This document shows, piece by piece, positions 20,830 to 28,478 of a DNA stretch of 64,000 nucleotides. Position numbers and translations under genes: made by a program. The notes below the pieces were generated by a model, which was given only the letters and a program-made list of their open reading frames with translations, made no database searches and was not told the origin of the DNA. Each line of letters opens with the position of its first letter. The stretch's first letter is position 1. Location: the NCBI GenBank assembly GCA_903847975.1, contig CAINFC010000252.1:213220-277219 (forward strand), read 5' to 3'. The DNA is from an uncultured Acidobacteriota bacterium (GTDB taxonomy: Bacteria > Acidobacteriota > UBA6911 > CAINFC01).

Positions 20830-22929
20830 TTATTTGGTCCTTACATGCAGCCAGTACACATTGGAGGTCTGGACCTGGTGGTTGCTGTAGCGATAGGCTA
20901 AAAATACGCCCACCAGGTAGTCCCCGGTGACCGGATCAATCGCGTTTCCATTGATGCCCTGCATGGTAATGTAGTTTGCTGGAATGGTCGCGGTACCCTG
21001 GCTGGAATTGGTTATCTGAACGGGTAAAACATCCCCTCCGGTCACGTCGGGATGAAAATTATTCTGCAGGTTGACCTGGTAGACGGTCGGGAATCCGGAG
21101 CCGCTGATCCTCAAATGCTGCTCGCCGCTGTTCAGCATCATCACCGAAGGCTCAATGGAGCTGATGATCAGATCCGGCAAAGTAGTGCTGGTTGTGGATA
21201 CCCCCGATGTCGTGGTGGTGGTCGTGGTGGTGGTTACAAACAGGGTGGTGGTGGTCGACCCGATCACCGTGGTTGTGGCGCTGCAGTTCGAGGTAACCCG
21301 GAGATAGATGGAGCCGGAGGTGATGTTGAGCGTTTTGTTTTTCACCTGGACCGCTTTGCTCCCGGCGGTGGCGGTAACCGAAGCAGGCACCGTGGCGCTC
21401 AAATTTCCGGGGCTGTTATAAATGGTCGCCATTTCCACCGTATCGATAAGTACCGCGCTGTCGGCCGTAAACCGCATCCCCTGCACAATAAAATTCGATA
21501 TCTGCCCCGAGCCGGGCGCCACGCACTCCGGATAACTGCTGAACACCACAGGGTCGCTGGACGTCAGAGTGGTAGTGGTGCTGGAACTGGGCACGATGGA
21601 AGTGGTGGTAATAATGATAGTGGTCGAAGCGTTGGTGGTAGTGGTGGTCGTCGTTGTCGAAGTCGTGGTGGTTGTCGTTGTCGTGGTAGTCGTGGTGGGG
21701 ATTACCTGAAAGGAAAGCGGGCCCGCCTCCGGAAGGGTCATGGAGGCCCCGCCATTATCAGTCACCCGCAGCTGCAGGGTGTGAAAACCGAGAGAAAGAC
21801 CGGAATAGCTTACCCAGTTGGAAAAGCCGACATAAGGACACCCGGTGAAATTCCCTTTGGCGGCGCAGACATCCGGCCGCGAAACGGTGTTCGACAGGGA
21901 CCCGATGCGGATGCTGTCGATAAAAACATCGATGGAATTCAATCCCGCCGAAGCCAGGGCCCACCCCTGCAGATAGAGGGGTCCGGAGCTGGGCGCAATA
22001 CTTCCAGAAGGTATTTCCAGGTTGGCGTAGAGAACCGAGGCCACCTTATTAAAAGAAATCGGTGTGGAAGGAATGTCTTTTTGCTGTCCGCTGGAAGTCA
22101 GAACCCGAGCCTGCAGCGTGTGTTTGCCGACCGAAAGATTGAGCACGTTGATTGTCGCCTGGAATCCGGAATTAAGACAGCCCGAATAGCCGGGATATGC
22201 AGCACAGACGTCGTTTCGGGCTGCACCGTAGGCGGCCATCCCGGAAGGAACGCCGTCCACCAGGATGCTGACGGAAGTAATCGGCTTGTTGGACAGAGCC
22301 CAGCCCGAGACCGACAGGGAGCTGTAGGTGGAGGCTCCCGGAACGGGAGCCTCCACGCTGCCGTAAATATCTGTGTCCACTTTGCGAATGATGACCGGAG
22401 GGTTGTTGACGTTGTATCCGACCCCGCCGGGAGTAGTCACCCGCAGGTTGACCATATGCTCTCCCACCGGAAGGGATGAAATGTCTACGGAGGTGGAAAA
22501 TCCTACCAGAGGACACTGGGAGTAATTTCCCAATGCCTTGCAGACGTCGTCCCTCCGGACTGTGAGCTGGATATTCGACTTCATAACCGTGCCGCTGACA
22601 ATCAGTTCGACCAGATAAGTAGGGGTGGTGGTGTACACCCAGCCATATACGTTGAGCAGGGAGGAAGTAGTCGTTCCGCTGGTGGGCTGGTCAAGGTACC
22701 CGAAGGGAGCAGCGGTTCCAGCTTCGGCAATCACCCTTTCAAGGGAATAGGGGGTTCCCGGATTGATCTCCAGTTTTTCCACAGAGGACCTGCCTGTTGG
22801 TTCCTGTGCCGGGTCCGTCTGAGCCGGAACGGCGCCAGCCAGCAGCACAGCCCAAAGCAGAAAAAACAGAGTCGGATGGCTTAAATTTTTTAAATACATA
22901 AGCTTATACTTTGATTTCATTACGACCAT
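20830..22929 (-). CDS. Large secreted protein with three Ig-like repeats, Thr-rich linkers and IPT-type domains
   Basis: After a signal peptide (ending AVPAQ) come three tandem domains of about 105 residues starting near residues 80, 190 and 300. Each has the pattern xGWxxxxxxxxxVxIxVDG...RxDVCxAxxxYxxCxxxGF, with a Cys pair that can form a disulphide. They belong to a bacterial Ig-like family of surface proteins. The C-terminal half has two more beta domains (about 470-560 and 600-695, IPT/TIG-like) separated by linkers of almost pure Thr (about 415-460 and 562-590). ATG 22929 and ATG 22920 both have acceptable ribosome sites. The neighbour at 23120-25372 is a paralogue. No catalytic motif is seen; adhesion or a structural surface role is likely. 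Confidence 0.75.
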   Translation of the reverse strand: MVVMKSKYKLMYLKNLSHPTLFFLLWAVLLAGAVPAQTDPAQEPTGRSSVEKLEINPGTPYSLERVIAEAGTAAPFGYLDQPTSGTTTSSLLNVYGWVYTTTPTYLVELIVSGTVMKSNIQLTVRRDDVCKALGNYSQCPLVGFSTSVDISSLPVGEHMVNLRVTTPGGVGYNVNNPPVIIRKVDTDIYGSVEAPVPGASTYSSLSVSGWALSNKPITSVSILVDGVPSGMAAYGAARNDVCAAYPGYSGCLNSGFQATINVLNLSVGKHTLQARVLTSSGQQKDIPSTPISFNKVASVLYANLEIPSGSIAPSSGPLYLQGWALASAGLNSIDVFIDSIRIGSLSNTVSRPDVCAAKGNFTGCPYVGFSNWVSYSGLSLGFHTLQLRVTDNGGASMTLPEAGPLSFQVIPTTTTTTTTTTTTSTTTTTTTTNASTTIIITTTSIVPSSSTTTTLTSSDPVVFSSYPECVAPGSGQISNFIVQGMRFTADSAVLIDTVEMATIYNSPGNLSATVPASVTATAGSKAVQVKNKTLNITSGSIYLRVTSNCSATTTVIGSTTTTLFVTTTTTTTTTSGVSTTSTTLPDLIISSIEPSVMMLNSGEQHLRISGSGFPTVYQVNLQNNFHPDVTGGDVLPVQITNSSQGTATIPANYITMQGINGNAIDPVTGDYLVGVFLAYRYSNHQVQTSNVYWLHVRTK

Positions 22930-23119: not shown

Positions 23120-25372
23120 TCAATAGGCGACCACCTGCAGCTGGGCAACCCCAACGGATTCGGTCATATCAAGATTTCGTACTTTGACCGGCCGGAAACC
23201 GGCTGTGTCCGTGAAAAGAGTCGGTACGGAAGTTGTAACGGAATTGGAGCTGATGTAGTTTGCCTGGAGTTCCATATAGGGTGCTCCGTCGGATTGTGCT
23301 ATCAAAACCTTGCAGCCCGGCTGGAAGTTGGCGCCGGAAATATTAAGCGTGAAGGCGGTTCCGATACCCTGCGGCACCTGTGCCGGCGTGAGCTTGGTGA
23401 TGACCGGGGCCGTACCGGGGACGGTAATGGTCGTAGTGGAACTGGTGCTGGTGGAAGTTGTCGTGCTTGTCGTCGTGATCCCCCCGGTGGGAACAACCAG
23501 GAAATCAACCGATGGCGATTCTTTTCCGTCCGCATTGCGCACGACGACCGCCCGATATCCGGCAGCCAGGATATCCGCGCCGTTGATCTGGGCAAACAGA
23601 GCCAGCGGGGCAGCCAATAGAGTGGACTTGGCGACTCCGCCGAAGATCACCTGGCTCCCGGAGTTGAATCCCGTTCCATATACCTTGAGTGTGAAGGGTC
23701 CGCTGCCGGCATAAACGCTTACCGGATCGATCTGGACAATCTGCAGCTGATCCGGGGAGAGCGTGGTCGTCGTGGACTGGTCGGGCGTGGTGGTCGTACT
23801 GCTGAAGATGGTGGTAGTGGTGATGGTTGCAGGAACATCGATGACGTCGAAGTAGAGTACATTGGATTCCAGGCTTCCGTTTTTAACCAGGACCGGCTTC
23901 GCTCCCACGGTAGCAATATCCCCGGCCTGAATCGTGGCATTGATCGTGCTCCCGTAACCAGGATAGGTGGTGGGCCTTTCCTGTCCGTTGAAAACCACCA
24001 CGCTGCCGCTGTTGAATCCGGTTCCCAGAATGCTGAGAATAAAGCCGCTGCCTCCGACCACCGTGGAGTAGGGGCTGAGTTCATAAATAGCAGGAGTGCC
24101 CGAGACCAGCGTGGTCGTGGTCTCATTCGAAGTAGTGGTTGTAGTGAAAAGCGTTGTGGAGCCGGTGGTCGTTGAAGTTGTAGTCGGAATCAGAGAGGAG
24201 ACCGTGAACGGGATCGGACCCTGTGCCGGGAGAAGGATGCTGGTACCGTTCACAGCAACGGCCTGAACCCGCAGCTGGTGAGGCCCCTGCGCCAGGCCGC
24301 TATAGTATAAACGGTATTCGAAACCCACGTTAGGGCAGCCTGGAAAGCTGCCTAGGGCAATGCAGACATCCGGGCGAAAGGCCCCGAGCGAGGCATTAGC
24401 GACAACCATATCGTCCACCAGTATTTCCACCCTCGAAATCCCCTGCGGCGAAACCGCCCATCCCGAAATCCAGAGATCCGACAGGTCGGAAGGTGGAGGA
24501 CCCGATGGGGAGTCCAGAACACCGACAACGTAGGAAGAGGGCTTGATGACTGTCCGGGGAACAGCGGGGAACGCAAAGGTCACCCCCCCTACATCCCGGG
24601 CGCGCATCTGGATGGTATGGGCTCCCGCGGAAAATAAATTGGAATTCAAAGCAAAAAAGAATCCCGAGTTGGCACACCCGCCAAAACCGGCATACGGAAC
24701 ACACACATCCGGGCGGTAGGCGCCGTAATCCGCATAGCCCACCCCGACACCGTCGACCAGTACCTCCACATTCTGAATAGTCCGGCTGCCGACCACCCAG
24801 CCGGAAAGAGCCAGGGAGCCGACAAAAGACTGCCCTTCCTGCGGTTGCTCGAGATTTCCATTAAACTCCACATTTGCTTTAACCACCAGCGGCATATTCA
24901 GACTCGTCCCGGAAACGCCTGTCGTATCGGTGACCCGTAAGGCAATACTGTGGGTACCCGGAAGCATAAAACTGGTACTCAGGCTGGTGCGGAATCCGAC
25001 ATAGGGGCAATTCGGAAAAGTCCCCAGGGCTGCGCAAACGTCCGGGCGCGCAACCGATAAAGGAACATTCTGGACAACCGCTTCTCCGTCGACCAGAATC
25101 GCCAGGTTGGCAATCGGCATATTCCCGACTGCCCAGCCGATAACCTCCATCGATCCGAACACCGAAGATCCGTTGGAAGGCGTTTCCACGTACCCAAACG
25201 GCCGGGTGATTTCCGCTTCAGGCTTGATAAGCCTCAGATAGGAGGTATCTATGGCGGCAGGTTGAATTTCGTGGGTCGGGTGCACATCGCCGGCAAGTAC
25301 TGCACTTCCGGATAAAAGCAAAAGGATTCCGGATAAAAGGAAGAGTAAATCGGCATGCTGTGATCGCTGCAT
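23120..25372 (-). CDS. Large secreted protein with three Ig-like repeats and three IPT/TIG domains
   Basis: The 750-residue product starts at ATG 25372 behind AGGGGG; its signal peptide ends near SAVLAGD. Three N-terminal domains repeat the GWAV...VEILVDG...RPDVC...FPGCPNVGF pattern (about residues 60-165, 170-275, 280-385), each with two Cys. Three IPT/TIG-like domains follow (about 425-510, 540-625, 660-745), each with GTGFNSGS or an equivalent, joined by Thr/Ser-rich linkers. This is the same plan as the gene just downstream, so they arose by duplication. No enzymatic motif is visible. The Thr-rich linkers could be O-glycosylated, and a GT39-like transferase lies in the nearby polysaccharide cluster; that connection is inference only. 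Confidence 0.77.
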   Translation of the reverse strand: MQRSQHADLLFLLSGILLLLSGSAVLAGDVHPTHEIQPAAIDTSYLRLIKPEAEITRPFGYVETPSNGSSVFGSMEVIGWAVGNMPIANLAILVDGEAVVQNVPLSVARPDVCAALGTFPNCPYVGFRTSLSTSFMLPGTHSIALRVTDTTGVSGTSLNMPLVVKANVEFNGNLEQPQEGQSFVGSLALSGWVVGSRTIQNVEVLVDGVGVGYADYGAYRPDVCVPYAGFGGCANSGFFFALNSNLFSAGAHTIQMRARDVGGVTFAFPAVPRTVIKPSSYVVGVLDSPSGPPPSDLSDLWISGWAVSPQGISRVEILVDDMVVANASLGAFRPDVCIALGSFPGCPNVGFEYRLYYSGLAQGPHQLRVQAVAVNGTSILLPAQGPIPFTVSSLIPTTTSTTTGSTTLFTTTTTSNETTTTLVSGTPAIYELSPYSTVVGGSGFILSILGTGFNSGSVVVFNGQERPTTYPGYGSTINATIQAGDIATVGAKPVLVKNGSLESNVLYFDVIDVPATITTTTIFSSTTTTPDQSTTTTLSPDQLQIVQIDPVSVYAGSGPFTLKVYGTGFNSGSQVIFGGVAKSTLLAAPLALFAQINGADILAAGYRAVVVRNADGKESPSVDFLVVPTGGITTTSTTTSTSTSSTTTITVPGTAPVITKLTPAQVPQGIGTAFTLNISGANFQPGCKVLIAQSDGAPYMELQANYISSNSVTTSVPTLFTDTAGFRPVKVRNLDMTESVGVAQLQVVAY

Positions 25373-25461
25373 ATGCACCCCCTGCTTATGAAAAGCAGAT
25401 TTTCCTTATAAATGACATGAAGTTTGAAAGCATAAATACGCTTCATTCAAAGCTATTATAA

Positions 25462-25603: not shown

Positions 25604-25646
25604 CTAACCACAGCATTATTATAAGAATAAAAGGAAGAGGTTTTAC

Positions 25647-26396
25647 ATGAAAAAAGCGATATTTCTTTGGGTTGCTTTTTTAATAATGGCTTCCGCCCAA
25701 GTCACGCCAGCCCAAAGGCCGCGGCTCGAAGTGAAGCAGGATGTGGTAAATCTCGGAGAACTTCAGGAGGGAGAAGTAGTCGAGCACCTGTTTACCTTTA
25801 CCAATGTGGGTGATGCGACCCTGCAAATTTTCGATACCTTCGCCGATTGAGGGTGCACAGCCGCGGTTGCCAGTTCGGCAACCATACCTCCCGGAAAATC
25901 GGGAACCGTCAAAGCTTCCATTAACACCAGGGGCCGGGTTGGCGATCTGGAAAAAGGGGTTCATATTGTCAGCAACGATCCGCTTTCTCCTCAAAGAACA
26001 CTAAAACTCAGGGCAGTTGTAAAAAATTTTCATCAGCTCGCCGGTTCGAATTTCCGTCCTGAGCTCATCTTTTCCAAGGGTTGCGGCTCCTGTCATGCCG
26101 TTCGGGCCAGTAACCAGTCCGGGGAGAAGTTATTCAAAGCGGTTTGCCAGGTTTGTCACAATCCGGCCAGCACCATAGCAAAAACGGGAGATAGCTTTCC
26201 CAAAAACCGCCAGCCCAACCTGCTTCGGGCAGCCATTGCCAAAGGTGCCACGGGCATGCCCGGCTTTTCCTCTTCCGTAGGAGGACCACTCAGTAGTGCC
26301 CAGATTGAAAGCCTGGTTCAGTACTTTCAACAGAGCACACCTTCTCCGTCCACGGTGGGAGATGCCGCAACGAAAAGCAAATCTCCGGTTAAATAA
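25647..26396 (+). CDS. Predicted selenoprotein: DUF1573 domain with Sec in the CGCT motif, fused to cytochrome c
   Basis: An AAGGAAGAGG ribosome site precedes ATG 25647. The frame runs to TGA at 25848-25850 and then stays open for 181 codons to TAA at 26394-26396, giving 249 residues if TGA is read through. Residues 1-22 are a signal peptide. Residues about 25-125 match DUF1573 on both sides of the TGA: NLGELQEGEVVEHLFTFTNVGD before, IPPGKSGTVKAS and IVSNDPLSPQRTL after. The family motif is CGCT; here it reads TGA-Gly-Cys-Thr, so selenocysteine 68 replaces its first Cys. The C-terminal domain has CGSCH (146-150), CQVCH (167-171) and MPGF (Met 204), so it is a periplasmic haem protein. A SECIS-like hairpin follows the TGA. 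A nonsense mutation is the alternative, but no other damage is visible. Confidence 0.8.
25848..25890 (+). promoter_or_regulatory. Bacterial SECIS-like hairpin downstream of in-frame TGA
   Basis: After TGA (25848-25850) and 14 bases comes GGTTGCC (25865-25871), loop AGTTC (25872-25876) and GGCAACC (25877-25883), a perfect 7-bp stem. The loop has G at its second position followed by T, as in known bacterial SECIS loops bound by SelB; the E. coli fdhF element also starts its upper stem with GGUUGC. GAGG (25849-25852) can pair with CCTC (25887-25890) to extend the structure around the TGA. Confidence 0.75.
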
Positions 26397-26462: not shown

Positions 26463-28478
26463 ATGAGTGGTACAAAGGACCCGTGGGGAAAATACTATTC
26501 CTGGTCAGTTCGGATACTGCTTTATTTCCTAATTGTATTTTCCCCCCTGCTGTTTTCTGAGAGGTTTGGCCTCGTCCGCCTGAAACTGGACTGGGGACTC
26601 CCCTATCGGGAAGATATGGTTTATTTTACAGGCCTGCTCCTGCTGGGCCTCGCCTTTTTCCGGTTTTTAGCAAGCCAAACATGCCCCCCTTCCCTGGAGA
26701 CTCTCAAAAATTCCCTAAGAATCCGGCGGAATCCTGTCCTCCTTTTTCTGTTAATCCTTATTCCCTGGCTGATTTGCTGTTGCTTCTGGAGTCCAGATCC
26801 CTTCGCCGGGCGTCAATCGCTTTGGTACTTTTTTGCGTGCGCAGGAATTTTCTGGACCGTCTGGCAGGAAGCAGACTCGCATTTTGCCAGGCGGGCAGCC
26901 CAGTGCCTGCTTTTGCCGGGGTGGCTGAACGCCGTCTGGACATTCCTCCAGCAGCGCGGATTGGATCCTATTTTCATGACGGATCGCTGGTTGGAACTGG
27001 CGGGAGAACGCATTTTTACCGTGGGCTTTTGCGGAAATCCGAACTTCCTGGCCCCGTTCCTGCTGATCTGCCTGATCGCCTCCGTCGCGCTGCTGATCAC
27101 TTCCAGGCGCCTGATAGCCCGGTTGATTTATGCCTGCTCCCTGCCGGTTTTTCTCCTCGCCCTGGTTTTCACACAGACTTTTTCCGTCTATATCGGTTTT
27201 CTTTTCTGTACCCTGCTTACCGTGGTATTTCTTTCCAAGCAGGGAAGCCTGAAGGTCGGACTGCTGATTGCTATTACCGGGTTGGCTATCTGTATTCTGG
27301 GTGTGAGCCTGTATTATACGGATGTTCTCAACGAAGAATACAAAGAGCGCATAGCCGTGCTATACCAGGCGTTTCTGGATCAGAATTGGGATCGGCTGCT
27401 TCACGGAAGAAATTTCGCTTACGCCTTCACCTGGGAAATGATTCTGGATCACCCCTGGAAAGGATTTGGATTGGCTTCATTTTCCCGTTACAGCCACCGG
27501 TATGCATCGGAACTCCCCCAACTGGATTACTTCCAGTACGCAAGAAATTACCGCTTTTACAAAGAAGCACATAACGAACTTCTTCAAGTCTGGGTGGAAA
27601 CCGGCCTTCCCGGCCTTCTGCTGTCGCTGGCCGCCCTTTTTCTATGGAGTCGTTTTCTCTGGAAAAAACTCCGCCGGAATTGCTTCCTCGGACATTCCGA
27701 TCCACAGGGCGAAAATTCACTCCATCAGAAAAGGGAAGCGATTTGGATGGCCTGGTGGGGAATGGTTGCCGCCAGTCTGGTTGTGAACAGCCTGTTCAGC
27801 TTCCCCTTAAGGCTGCCCCATTTAGCTGTTCTGGCTGTCCTGGGATTCGGTATTTCCCTGCGCATCGCACGGAGCGGGTCTCCCGACTTGTTGCGGGAAC
27901 GGAACGGAACGACCTTTTTTTTCACCTCTTTCAAATGGATTGCCGGAGCCGCCGCCGCTTTCGTCCTCTGCTGGCTTGCATCTCAAAACATCGATTTAAT
28001 CCGGTCCCGGACGATCCGGGAGCGGGTCGCACCCCAGGTTCACCTGCTGGCCGGAGAACTCCAGAAAACGGAGGAGCCGATTACGCCACGGATCATGGAC
28101 CTTACCAACCAGATCGCCAAGGATGTAAGCCTCGCCGTTCGGCTGGATCCCTACTCCGCTCAGAATTTTATCCACCAGGGTCTGGTTGACTTCGCCACCT
28201 TCCGGATGCCGTCCGCCATGGCGGCGCTGGAAAAGGCCGAGCGGCTGCAGCCCGGCGCGGAGCTTTACGCCAACATGGCCGTTTTTTCTCTGCGGATGAA
28301 GAGCTATGACAAGGCGGGGGAATACGCCCGCAAGGTCCTGCAGTTCAATCCCTTTCATGAAACGGCCCAGAATGTGATGAAATACCTGGGGGAGGTAAGA
28401 ACCAGAAGCCGCTACCCGGCGCTGATGAAATGGGAATATGTCCCTCTGGCCGAACCGGAAGTCGTGCGGATTCCGTAA
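26463..28478 (+). CDS. O-antigen ligase/polymerase family (Wzy/WaaL-like) membrane protein with C-terminal TPR-like tail
   Basis: The 671-residue inner-membrane protein has about 12 hydrophobic segments. The large periplasmic loop carries the family signature EAHNELLQVWVETGLPGLLL (about 375-395), with the His-Asn essential in O-antigen ligases. Such proteins either polymerise repeat units or ligate the glycan to a lipid or protein acceptor. After the last membrane helix (about 480-500) a soluble region ends with a TPR-like pair (AMAALEKAERLQPGAELYANMAVFSLRMKSYDKAGEYARKVLQFNP spans it), as in several ligases and PglL-type enzymes. It follows the selenoprotein by 66 bases and is convergent with the small membrane-protein gene at 28488. 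Polymerase and ligase cannot be told apart here. Confidence 0.8.
   Translation: MSGTKDPWGKYYSWSVRILLYFLIVFSPLLFSERFGLVRLKLDWGLPYREDMVYFTGLLLLGLAFFRFLASQTCPPSLETLKNSLRIRRNPVLLFLLILIPWLICCCFWSPDPFAGRQSLWYFFACAGIFWTVWQEADSHFARRAAQCLLLPGWLNAVWTFLQQRGLDPIFMTDRWLELAGERIFTVGFCGNPNFLAPFLLICLIASVALLITSRRLIARLIYACSLPVFLLALVFTQTFSVYIGFLFCTLLTVVFLSKQGSLKVGLLIAITGLAICILGVSLYYTDVLNEEYKERIAVLYQAFLDQNWDRLLHGRNFAYAFTWEMILDHPWKGFGLASFSRYSHRYASELPQLDYFQYARNYRFYKEAHNELLQVWVETGLPGLLLSLAALFLWSRFLWKKLRRNCFLGHSDPQGENSLHQKREAIWMAWWGMVAASLVVNSLFSFPLRLPHLAVLAVLGFGISLRIARSGSPDLLRERNGTTFFFTSFKWIAGAAAAFVLCWLASQNIDLIRSRTIRERVAPQVHLLAGELQKTEEPITPRIMDLTNQIAKDVSLAVRLDPYSAQNFIHQGLVDFATFRMPSAMAALEKAERLQPGAELYANMAVFSLRMKSYDKAGEYARKVLQFNPFHETAQNVMKYLGEVRTRSRYPALMKWEYVPLAEPEVVRIP

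Follow-up and report, generated by a model that had tools for sequence, protein, structure and literature searches.

The stretch of DNA analysed here, referred to as the window, is 64,000 nucleotides long and is contained in an assembly of 8.13 Mb that is 99% complete. It harbours a reading frame on the forward strand that starts with ATG, carries an in-frame TGA at codon 68 and closes with a TAA at 26394–26396; its features are collected in Table 1. Under standard translation, with TGA as a stop, the product ends at residue 67. Read through, the frame has no stop 3′ of the TGA within the gene, whereas the two alternative frames have 4 and 7. The resulting protein combines U-G-C at residues 68–70 with a PF07610 domain above cut-off, the two characteristics of DUF1573 selenoproteins, and two CxxCH motifs with a PF13442 domain above cut-off, the sequence characteristics of a two-haem c-type cytochrome. 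A first-pass annotation of this DNA had noted that the TGA replaces the codon for the leading Cys of C-G-C-T in DUF1573, and had described a frame continuing through both haem motifs to the TAA; translation and Pfam confirm this position, and the frame is stop-free to its end. The ribosome site that it had reported was also seen, with AGGAAGAGG 6 bases before the ATG. A scan for promoters and terminators returned 1 and 2 sites, respectively, versus 1.3 and 2.0 in shuffled sequences.

Table 1. Features of the TGA-containing gene, in positions of the window.
Feature	Position	Strand	Basis
DUF1573-diheme cytochrome c selenoprotein gene, 249 residues with TGA read as Sec	25647..26396	+	frame translation, Pfam, full-length homologues
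Ribosome-binding-like site AGGAAGAGG, 6 bases 5′ of ATG	25632..25640	+	by eye
Likely signal peptide, residues 1–22 (KK, hydrophobic stretch, TPA/Q)	25647..25712	+	by eye; model helix 2–14
DUF1573 domain (Ig-like / HYDIN-VesB-like), residues 27–125	25725..26021	+	Pfam PF07610 76.2 bits (cut-off 26.1); PF22544 55.2 bits
Sec codon UGA (very probable), residue 68, first position of U-G-C-T	25848..25850	+	column TGA/TGC/TGT in 101/101 sites examined
Partner Cys70 codon	25854..25856	+	Cys in 67/67 aligned fusions
bSECIS-type hairpin GGUUGCC-AGUUC-GGCAACC	25865..25883	+	loop start 21 nt past UGA; −11.0 kcal/mol
His129, candidate sixth ligand of haem 1	26031..26033	+	His in 58/67 aligned fusions
First haem c motif CGSCH, residues 146–150	26082..26096	+	Cys, Cys, His invariant in 67/67
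Cytochrome c domain (Cytochrome_CBB3, PF13442), residues 156–226	26112..26324	+	41.2 bits (cut-off 27)
Second haem c motif CQVCH, residues 167–171, start 21 residues from that of the first	26145..26159	+	invariant in 67/67
Met204 of MPGF, likely sixth ligand of haem 2	26256..26258	+	Met in 67/67; ligand role by analogy with cytochrome family

The genome that contains the window possesses the machinery for Sec insertion. SelA (544 bits, cut-off 267.9), SelB (343.7 bits, cut-off 242.25), SelD (357.7 bits, cut-off 125) and a tRNA-Sec with anticodon tca (77.1 bits, cut-off 47) are all present above cut-off, which answers the look-up of selA, selB, selC and selD that the first-pass annotation had proposed. 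SelB also exceeds its cut-off in 52 of 60 relatives; the comparison of SelB with TGA presence across these relatives says little, since the 8 genomes without SelB also have no match to the fusion protein, for which a match was obtained in 29 of the 60.

Across 101 DUF1573 sites examined, the codon at the column of residue 68 is TGA in 27, TGC in 54 and TGT in 20, so that the Sec/Cys pairing to be expected of a Sec codon, together with homologues carrying TGA, is indeed found (27 TGA versus 74 TGC/TGT sites). The 27 TGA sites comprise 21 from the search of 60 relatives, with the window's own included, and six more among the phylum-search matches listed; the 74 non-TGA sites are part of those found, and the ratio of TGA to Cys is not a prevalence because sites were largely chosen by their TGA flag. 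All 27 distinct TGA-bearing matches among those listed have the TGA at this same single column, and no second in-frame TGA occurs in approximately 100 codons around it at the 101 sites. The other stops encountered within matches, a TAA in L041 and a TAG in L067, are both at the C-terminal end and none is at column 68; the same applies to a TAA in the longer match of a paralogue from the window's genome, where the match extends beyond the paralogue's own stop. Duplicate loci, L048 (cytochrome part only), L059 (Cys) and L003 stand outside the count of 101, the last being the third DUF1573 match of the window's genome, a weak one at 24.9 bits with no C-G-C motif in its translation. A group of six short Sec-DUF1573 proteins from one family of the class (L044, L045, L096–L099) has U-A-C-T replacing U-G-C-T and a GGA-loop hairpin 21 nt past the UGA.

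In a tree calculated from a 106-column alignment with the column-68 codon masked, 12 Sec/Cys changes were counted, at least four of which are forced by well-supported branches; the alignment is short and many forks are without resolution. Judged from these sequences, Sec and Cys interchange repeatedly at column 68, as is expected of a redox site, and this repeated exchange marks the C-G-C motif of the domain as a very likely place of redox chemistry.

The hairpin downstream of the UGA, with a 7-bp stem and a 5-nt loop, fits the published bSECIS model, according to which a loop of 3–9 nt with G in its first two bases tops a stem of 4–16 bp, 16–37 nt from the UGA, at a minimum free energy of −7.5 or lower (PMC13188914). 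The hairpin region is only mildly stabler than shuffled sequences (z −1.18 to −1.79), with 22, 8 and 7 of 200 shuffles folding as well. Applied to 60 loci, one of them not scored, the published model accepts 12 of 14 Sec sites, yet it accepts 19 of 45 Cys sites too. Two of the latter are the Cys relative L021, which has the same AGUUC loop at −7.6, and, at −10.2, the Cys paralogue L049. The model was hence dropped as a lone discriminator. Given its looseness, a tighter test was adopted, on which the specificity of the hairpin rests: an uninterrupted stem of −3 kcal/mol or lower that carries, 17–23 nt past the UGA, a loop with G among its first two bases. By this test, which is post hoc in that it was set after the first sites had been seen, the tight hairpin is present at 21 of 27 TGA sites versus 0 of 74 Cys sites. 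It was found at 13 of the 15 first TGA sites and 8 of the 12 later-fetched ones, the latter being a partial hold-out that is related to the first set and accompanied by Cys rows that are not all new. At a threshold of −7.5 kcal/mol, the numbers are 5/15, 3/12 and 0/74 for first TGA, later TGA and Cys sites, respectively. A displaced-hairpin control (27–33 nt) gave 5/27 Sec and 1/74 Cys sites, and a tight stem anywhere in 16–37 nt was present in 24/27 Sec and 7/74 Cys sites. Only 4 independent Sec/Cys pairs lie on supported branches, and the hairpin follows the codon in 3.7 of them on average, too few for significance. In the second Sec fusion known to us (genome G001, see below), a 5-bp stem that differs from the window's can present an AGUUC loop at 21 nt (−4.5 kcal/mol), and a rival hairpin with a GUCA loop at 18 nt has an equally good score (−4.6); the Cys fusion of genome G006 keeps the AGUUC loop letters, but its simple stem is at +0.2 kcal/mol. 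Six TGA sites (L038, L042, L095, L100, L101, L104) are without the tight hairpin at 17–23 nt and may use another form of SECIS.

With SelA, SelB, SelD and tRNA-Sec in the genome, a SECIS-type hairpin behind the codon and Sec/Cys exchange in homologues, the first-pass reading of the TGA as a Sec codon is well supported, and SelB and tRNA-Sec very probably insert Sec at codon 68. Two of the findings that the first-pass annotation had named as refuting it, a genome lacking selB/selC and a lack of homologues with TGA at this column, are contradicted by these results.

The Sec form of the fusion between DUF1573 and a two-CxxCH cytochrome was found in two acidobacterial genomes, the window's own and that of a groundwater MAG (G001, JACQSX010000006.1). 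At an E value of 1e-30, the fusion is present in only 3 of 38 genomes of the class, namely these two and, in the Cys form, G006, which is of the same genus as G001; the G001 and G006 proteins are 66–69% identical. At least five further clear Cys fusions (G146, G169, G092, G272, G328) were found among 396 genomes drawn from the phylum, in a search limited to six scored candidates per genome, which may have missed others. Named genomes contributed 11 fusion loci, one Sec (that of G001) and ten Cys, the hosts of the Cys loci being an Acidobacteria bacterium, Melainabacteria/Vampirovibrionales, other Cyanobacteriota, a PVC bacterium and a Verrucomicrobiota bacterium. In the protein database, 86 of 120 listed matches (255 in all) contain both domains, i.e., at least 86; a database of ordinary open reading frames is not expected to show TGA forms whole. 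A query with the single protein had returned 2 matches only and a first scan of named genomes no relative; alignment queries did better.

The window's genome encodes, in addition to its one Sec fusion, one Cys-Ser-Cys paralogue that is 44% identical (L049, G000:C69:18693-19367, also L134), and one cell thus holds a Sec/Cys pair. A FAD_oxidored gene adjoins this paralogue (~0.2 kb), and a Sdh_cyt gene lies ~2.2 kb off. Among the ten Cys loci of named genomes, the one from an uncultured cyanobacterium (L058:4977-5873) has Cys-Cys for Cys-Gly-Cys.

Conservation was assessed on 67 aligned fusions, comprising 56 of the 86 two-domain database proteins and the 11 loci, with TGA entered as Cys. Residue 68, Cys70, both CxxCH motifs, Gly159 and Met204 are invariant, and position 129 is Asn or Ala in the 9 proteins in which it is not His. 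The starts of the two haem motifs are 21 residues apart in 15 of 15 fusions measured; L059 also carries both motifs. The predicted structure has a mean pLDDT of 84.7, with most DUF1573 blocks above 90, and a pTM of 0.59, the relative placing of the two domains being uncertain. In this model, Sec68 and Cys70 are situated in a loop between strands 59–66 and 71–75. The best Foldseek match is 2qsv, a Porphyromonas gingivalis protein of unknown function, and the matches that follow include HYDIN- and ASH-type domains; for the cytochrome part, sequence profiles point to fructose dehydrogenase, CcoP and cytochrome c6.

No redox pathway was recognised among the neighbours of the gene and of its relatives, which were inspected by eye, with nine neighbours scanned. 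O-antigen ligase-like genes adjoin both Sec fusions (window 26463–28478, Wzy_C; L050:5891-7795 in G001); the two proteins share 25% identity in blastp (E 1.6e-19), and their orientation differs between the loci. Just upstream of the fusion gene, on the opposite strand, the window encodes two large related proteins (20830–22929 and 23120–25378) that are ~35–37% identical and contain long threonine-rich runs.

The first-pass annotation had regarded the gene as founding a new selenoprotein family. This does not hold: DUF1573 with the motif UGC is already listed as a selenoprotein family in tables of PMC9312934 and PMC13188914, the former crediting it to Zhang and Gladyshev 2007, and a related model exists in NCBIfam (NF041425); in PMC10434189, DUF1573 appears only in a gene table. 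The window protein shares with the known family the Pfam domain above cut-off and the U-G-C motif, but adds a two-CxxCH cytochrome c, whereas the respective table rows in PMC9312934 and PMC13188914 name no cytochrome. To the OS_HP2 family (seleno)protein domain NF041425, it aligns over residues 33–126 with 66.3 bits, below the cut-off of 100, which is passed by one of ten other Sec-DUF1573 domains scanned (L040, 103.7 bits). The Cys DUF1573-diheme cytochromes have the same two domains, 21-residue motif spacing, conserved Met and GGPL-type stretch, but Cys for Sec and, at the Cys sites tested, no tight hairpin. The multiheme cytochrome selenoprotein ExtKL (NF040886) is likewise a c-type cytochrome with Sec, but its row in PMC13188914 gives neither a motif nor DUF1573, and the window protein has no match to NF040886 at E 0.001. 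No mention of a DUF1573-cytochrome fusion was found in the literature searched, which took in passages from PMC12013277 and PMC13188914 but no supplements and few subscription papers. The Sec form of the fusion is, hence, likely a new architecture within a known selenoprotein family.

Our favoured reading, to which we assign a probability of roughly 0.6, is that of an exported selenoprotein in which a Sec68-Gly69-Cys70 DUF1573 domain is fused to a two-CxxCH cytochrome and the Sec-Cys pair passes electrons to the haems. The protein would be exported from the cytoplasm by its putative signal peptide. Outside the cytoplasm, the selenol/thiol pair of Sec68 and Cys70 may oxidise a thiol-like or reduced-sulfur substrate and thereby close to a selenenylsulfide. 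Of the two electrons released, one would go to haem 1 (residues 146–150), perhaps with His129 as a ligand, and one to haem 2 (residues 167–171), with Met204 as the putative ligand, from where they could enter the respiratory chain. His/Met c haems of such a kind usually have a potential much higher than that of thiol couples, and the direction from substrate to haem was chosen for this reason; we hold it tentatively, at somewhat less than even odds. More tentative still is the most specific version of this reading, a self-contained extracytoplasmic selenol:cytochrome c oxidoreductase, in which the Sec-Gly-Cys of the Ig-like domain closes to a selenenylsulfide and hands one electron to each haem of the same chain.

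An alternative that we consider unlikely, though the strongest of those weighed, would reverse the flow of electrons: Sec68 and Cys70 would bind or reduce a metal or metalloid (e.g., Cu(I), Hg(II), or one of the selenite type), with the cytochrome supplying the electrons. A C-x-C pair in the loop that the model predicts for the Ig-like domain would make a plausible soft-metal site, and in L135, L138 and L139 Fur-like genes were seen by eye at a distance of ~3 kb from the Cys fusion, the one in L138 scoring 83.8 bits as FUR; however, a Pfam scan of four neighbours in the window revealed no gene for metal resistance, the other neighbours being inspected by eye. The cytochrome part does match ExtS, a selenite/tellurite-reduction cytochrome, but with 19.3 bits, far under the cut-off of 100, and the similarity of the haem domain is rather to carriers, among them cytochrome c6 and CcoP. 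Carrier-type haem domains of this sort make it more likely that electrons leave the thiol pair.

C-G-C tripeptides can act as disulfide catalysts. This precedent, together with the invariance of both residues of the pair in all aligned fusions, would suit a thiol-disulfide helper, in which U-G-C reduces or isomerises disulfides—e.g., the Cys pairs of CxxCH motifs—for haem attachment or elsewhere in the periplasm, the cytochrome being only a donor or an anchor. Such a role needs no haem domain, however, and inspection by eye, with nine neighbours scanned, brought up no ccm, dsb or res genes around the gene or its relatives; we rate it as improbable. A truncated gene, in which the TGA is a true stop, as the halt of standard translation at residue 67 would have it, or a sequencing error for TGC or TGT ahead of a dead downstream part, is highly improbable and was rejected, because the TGA occupies the same column in 27 sites, the tight hairpin is specific to TGA sites, all Sec genes are present and the frame is intact past the TGA.

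TGA-bearing matches are present in 17 of the 60 relatives (at least one in each, the window's genome not counted). Sec-DUF1573 genes therefore seem to be common among Acidobacteriota, where standard gene calling would truncate them. If the preferred reading of electron transfer from the Sec-Cys pair to the haems of the same chain is true, the oxidoreductase would link two-electron selenium chemistry to one-electron respiration, for which no description was found, and the haem-linked Sec form would let selenium chemistry deliver electrons directly into a cytochrome. With a very likely redox motif and two haem motifs on one chain, a domain of unknown function thus acquires a concrete, testable function.
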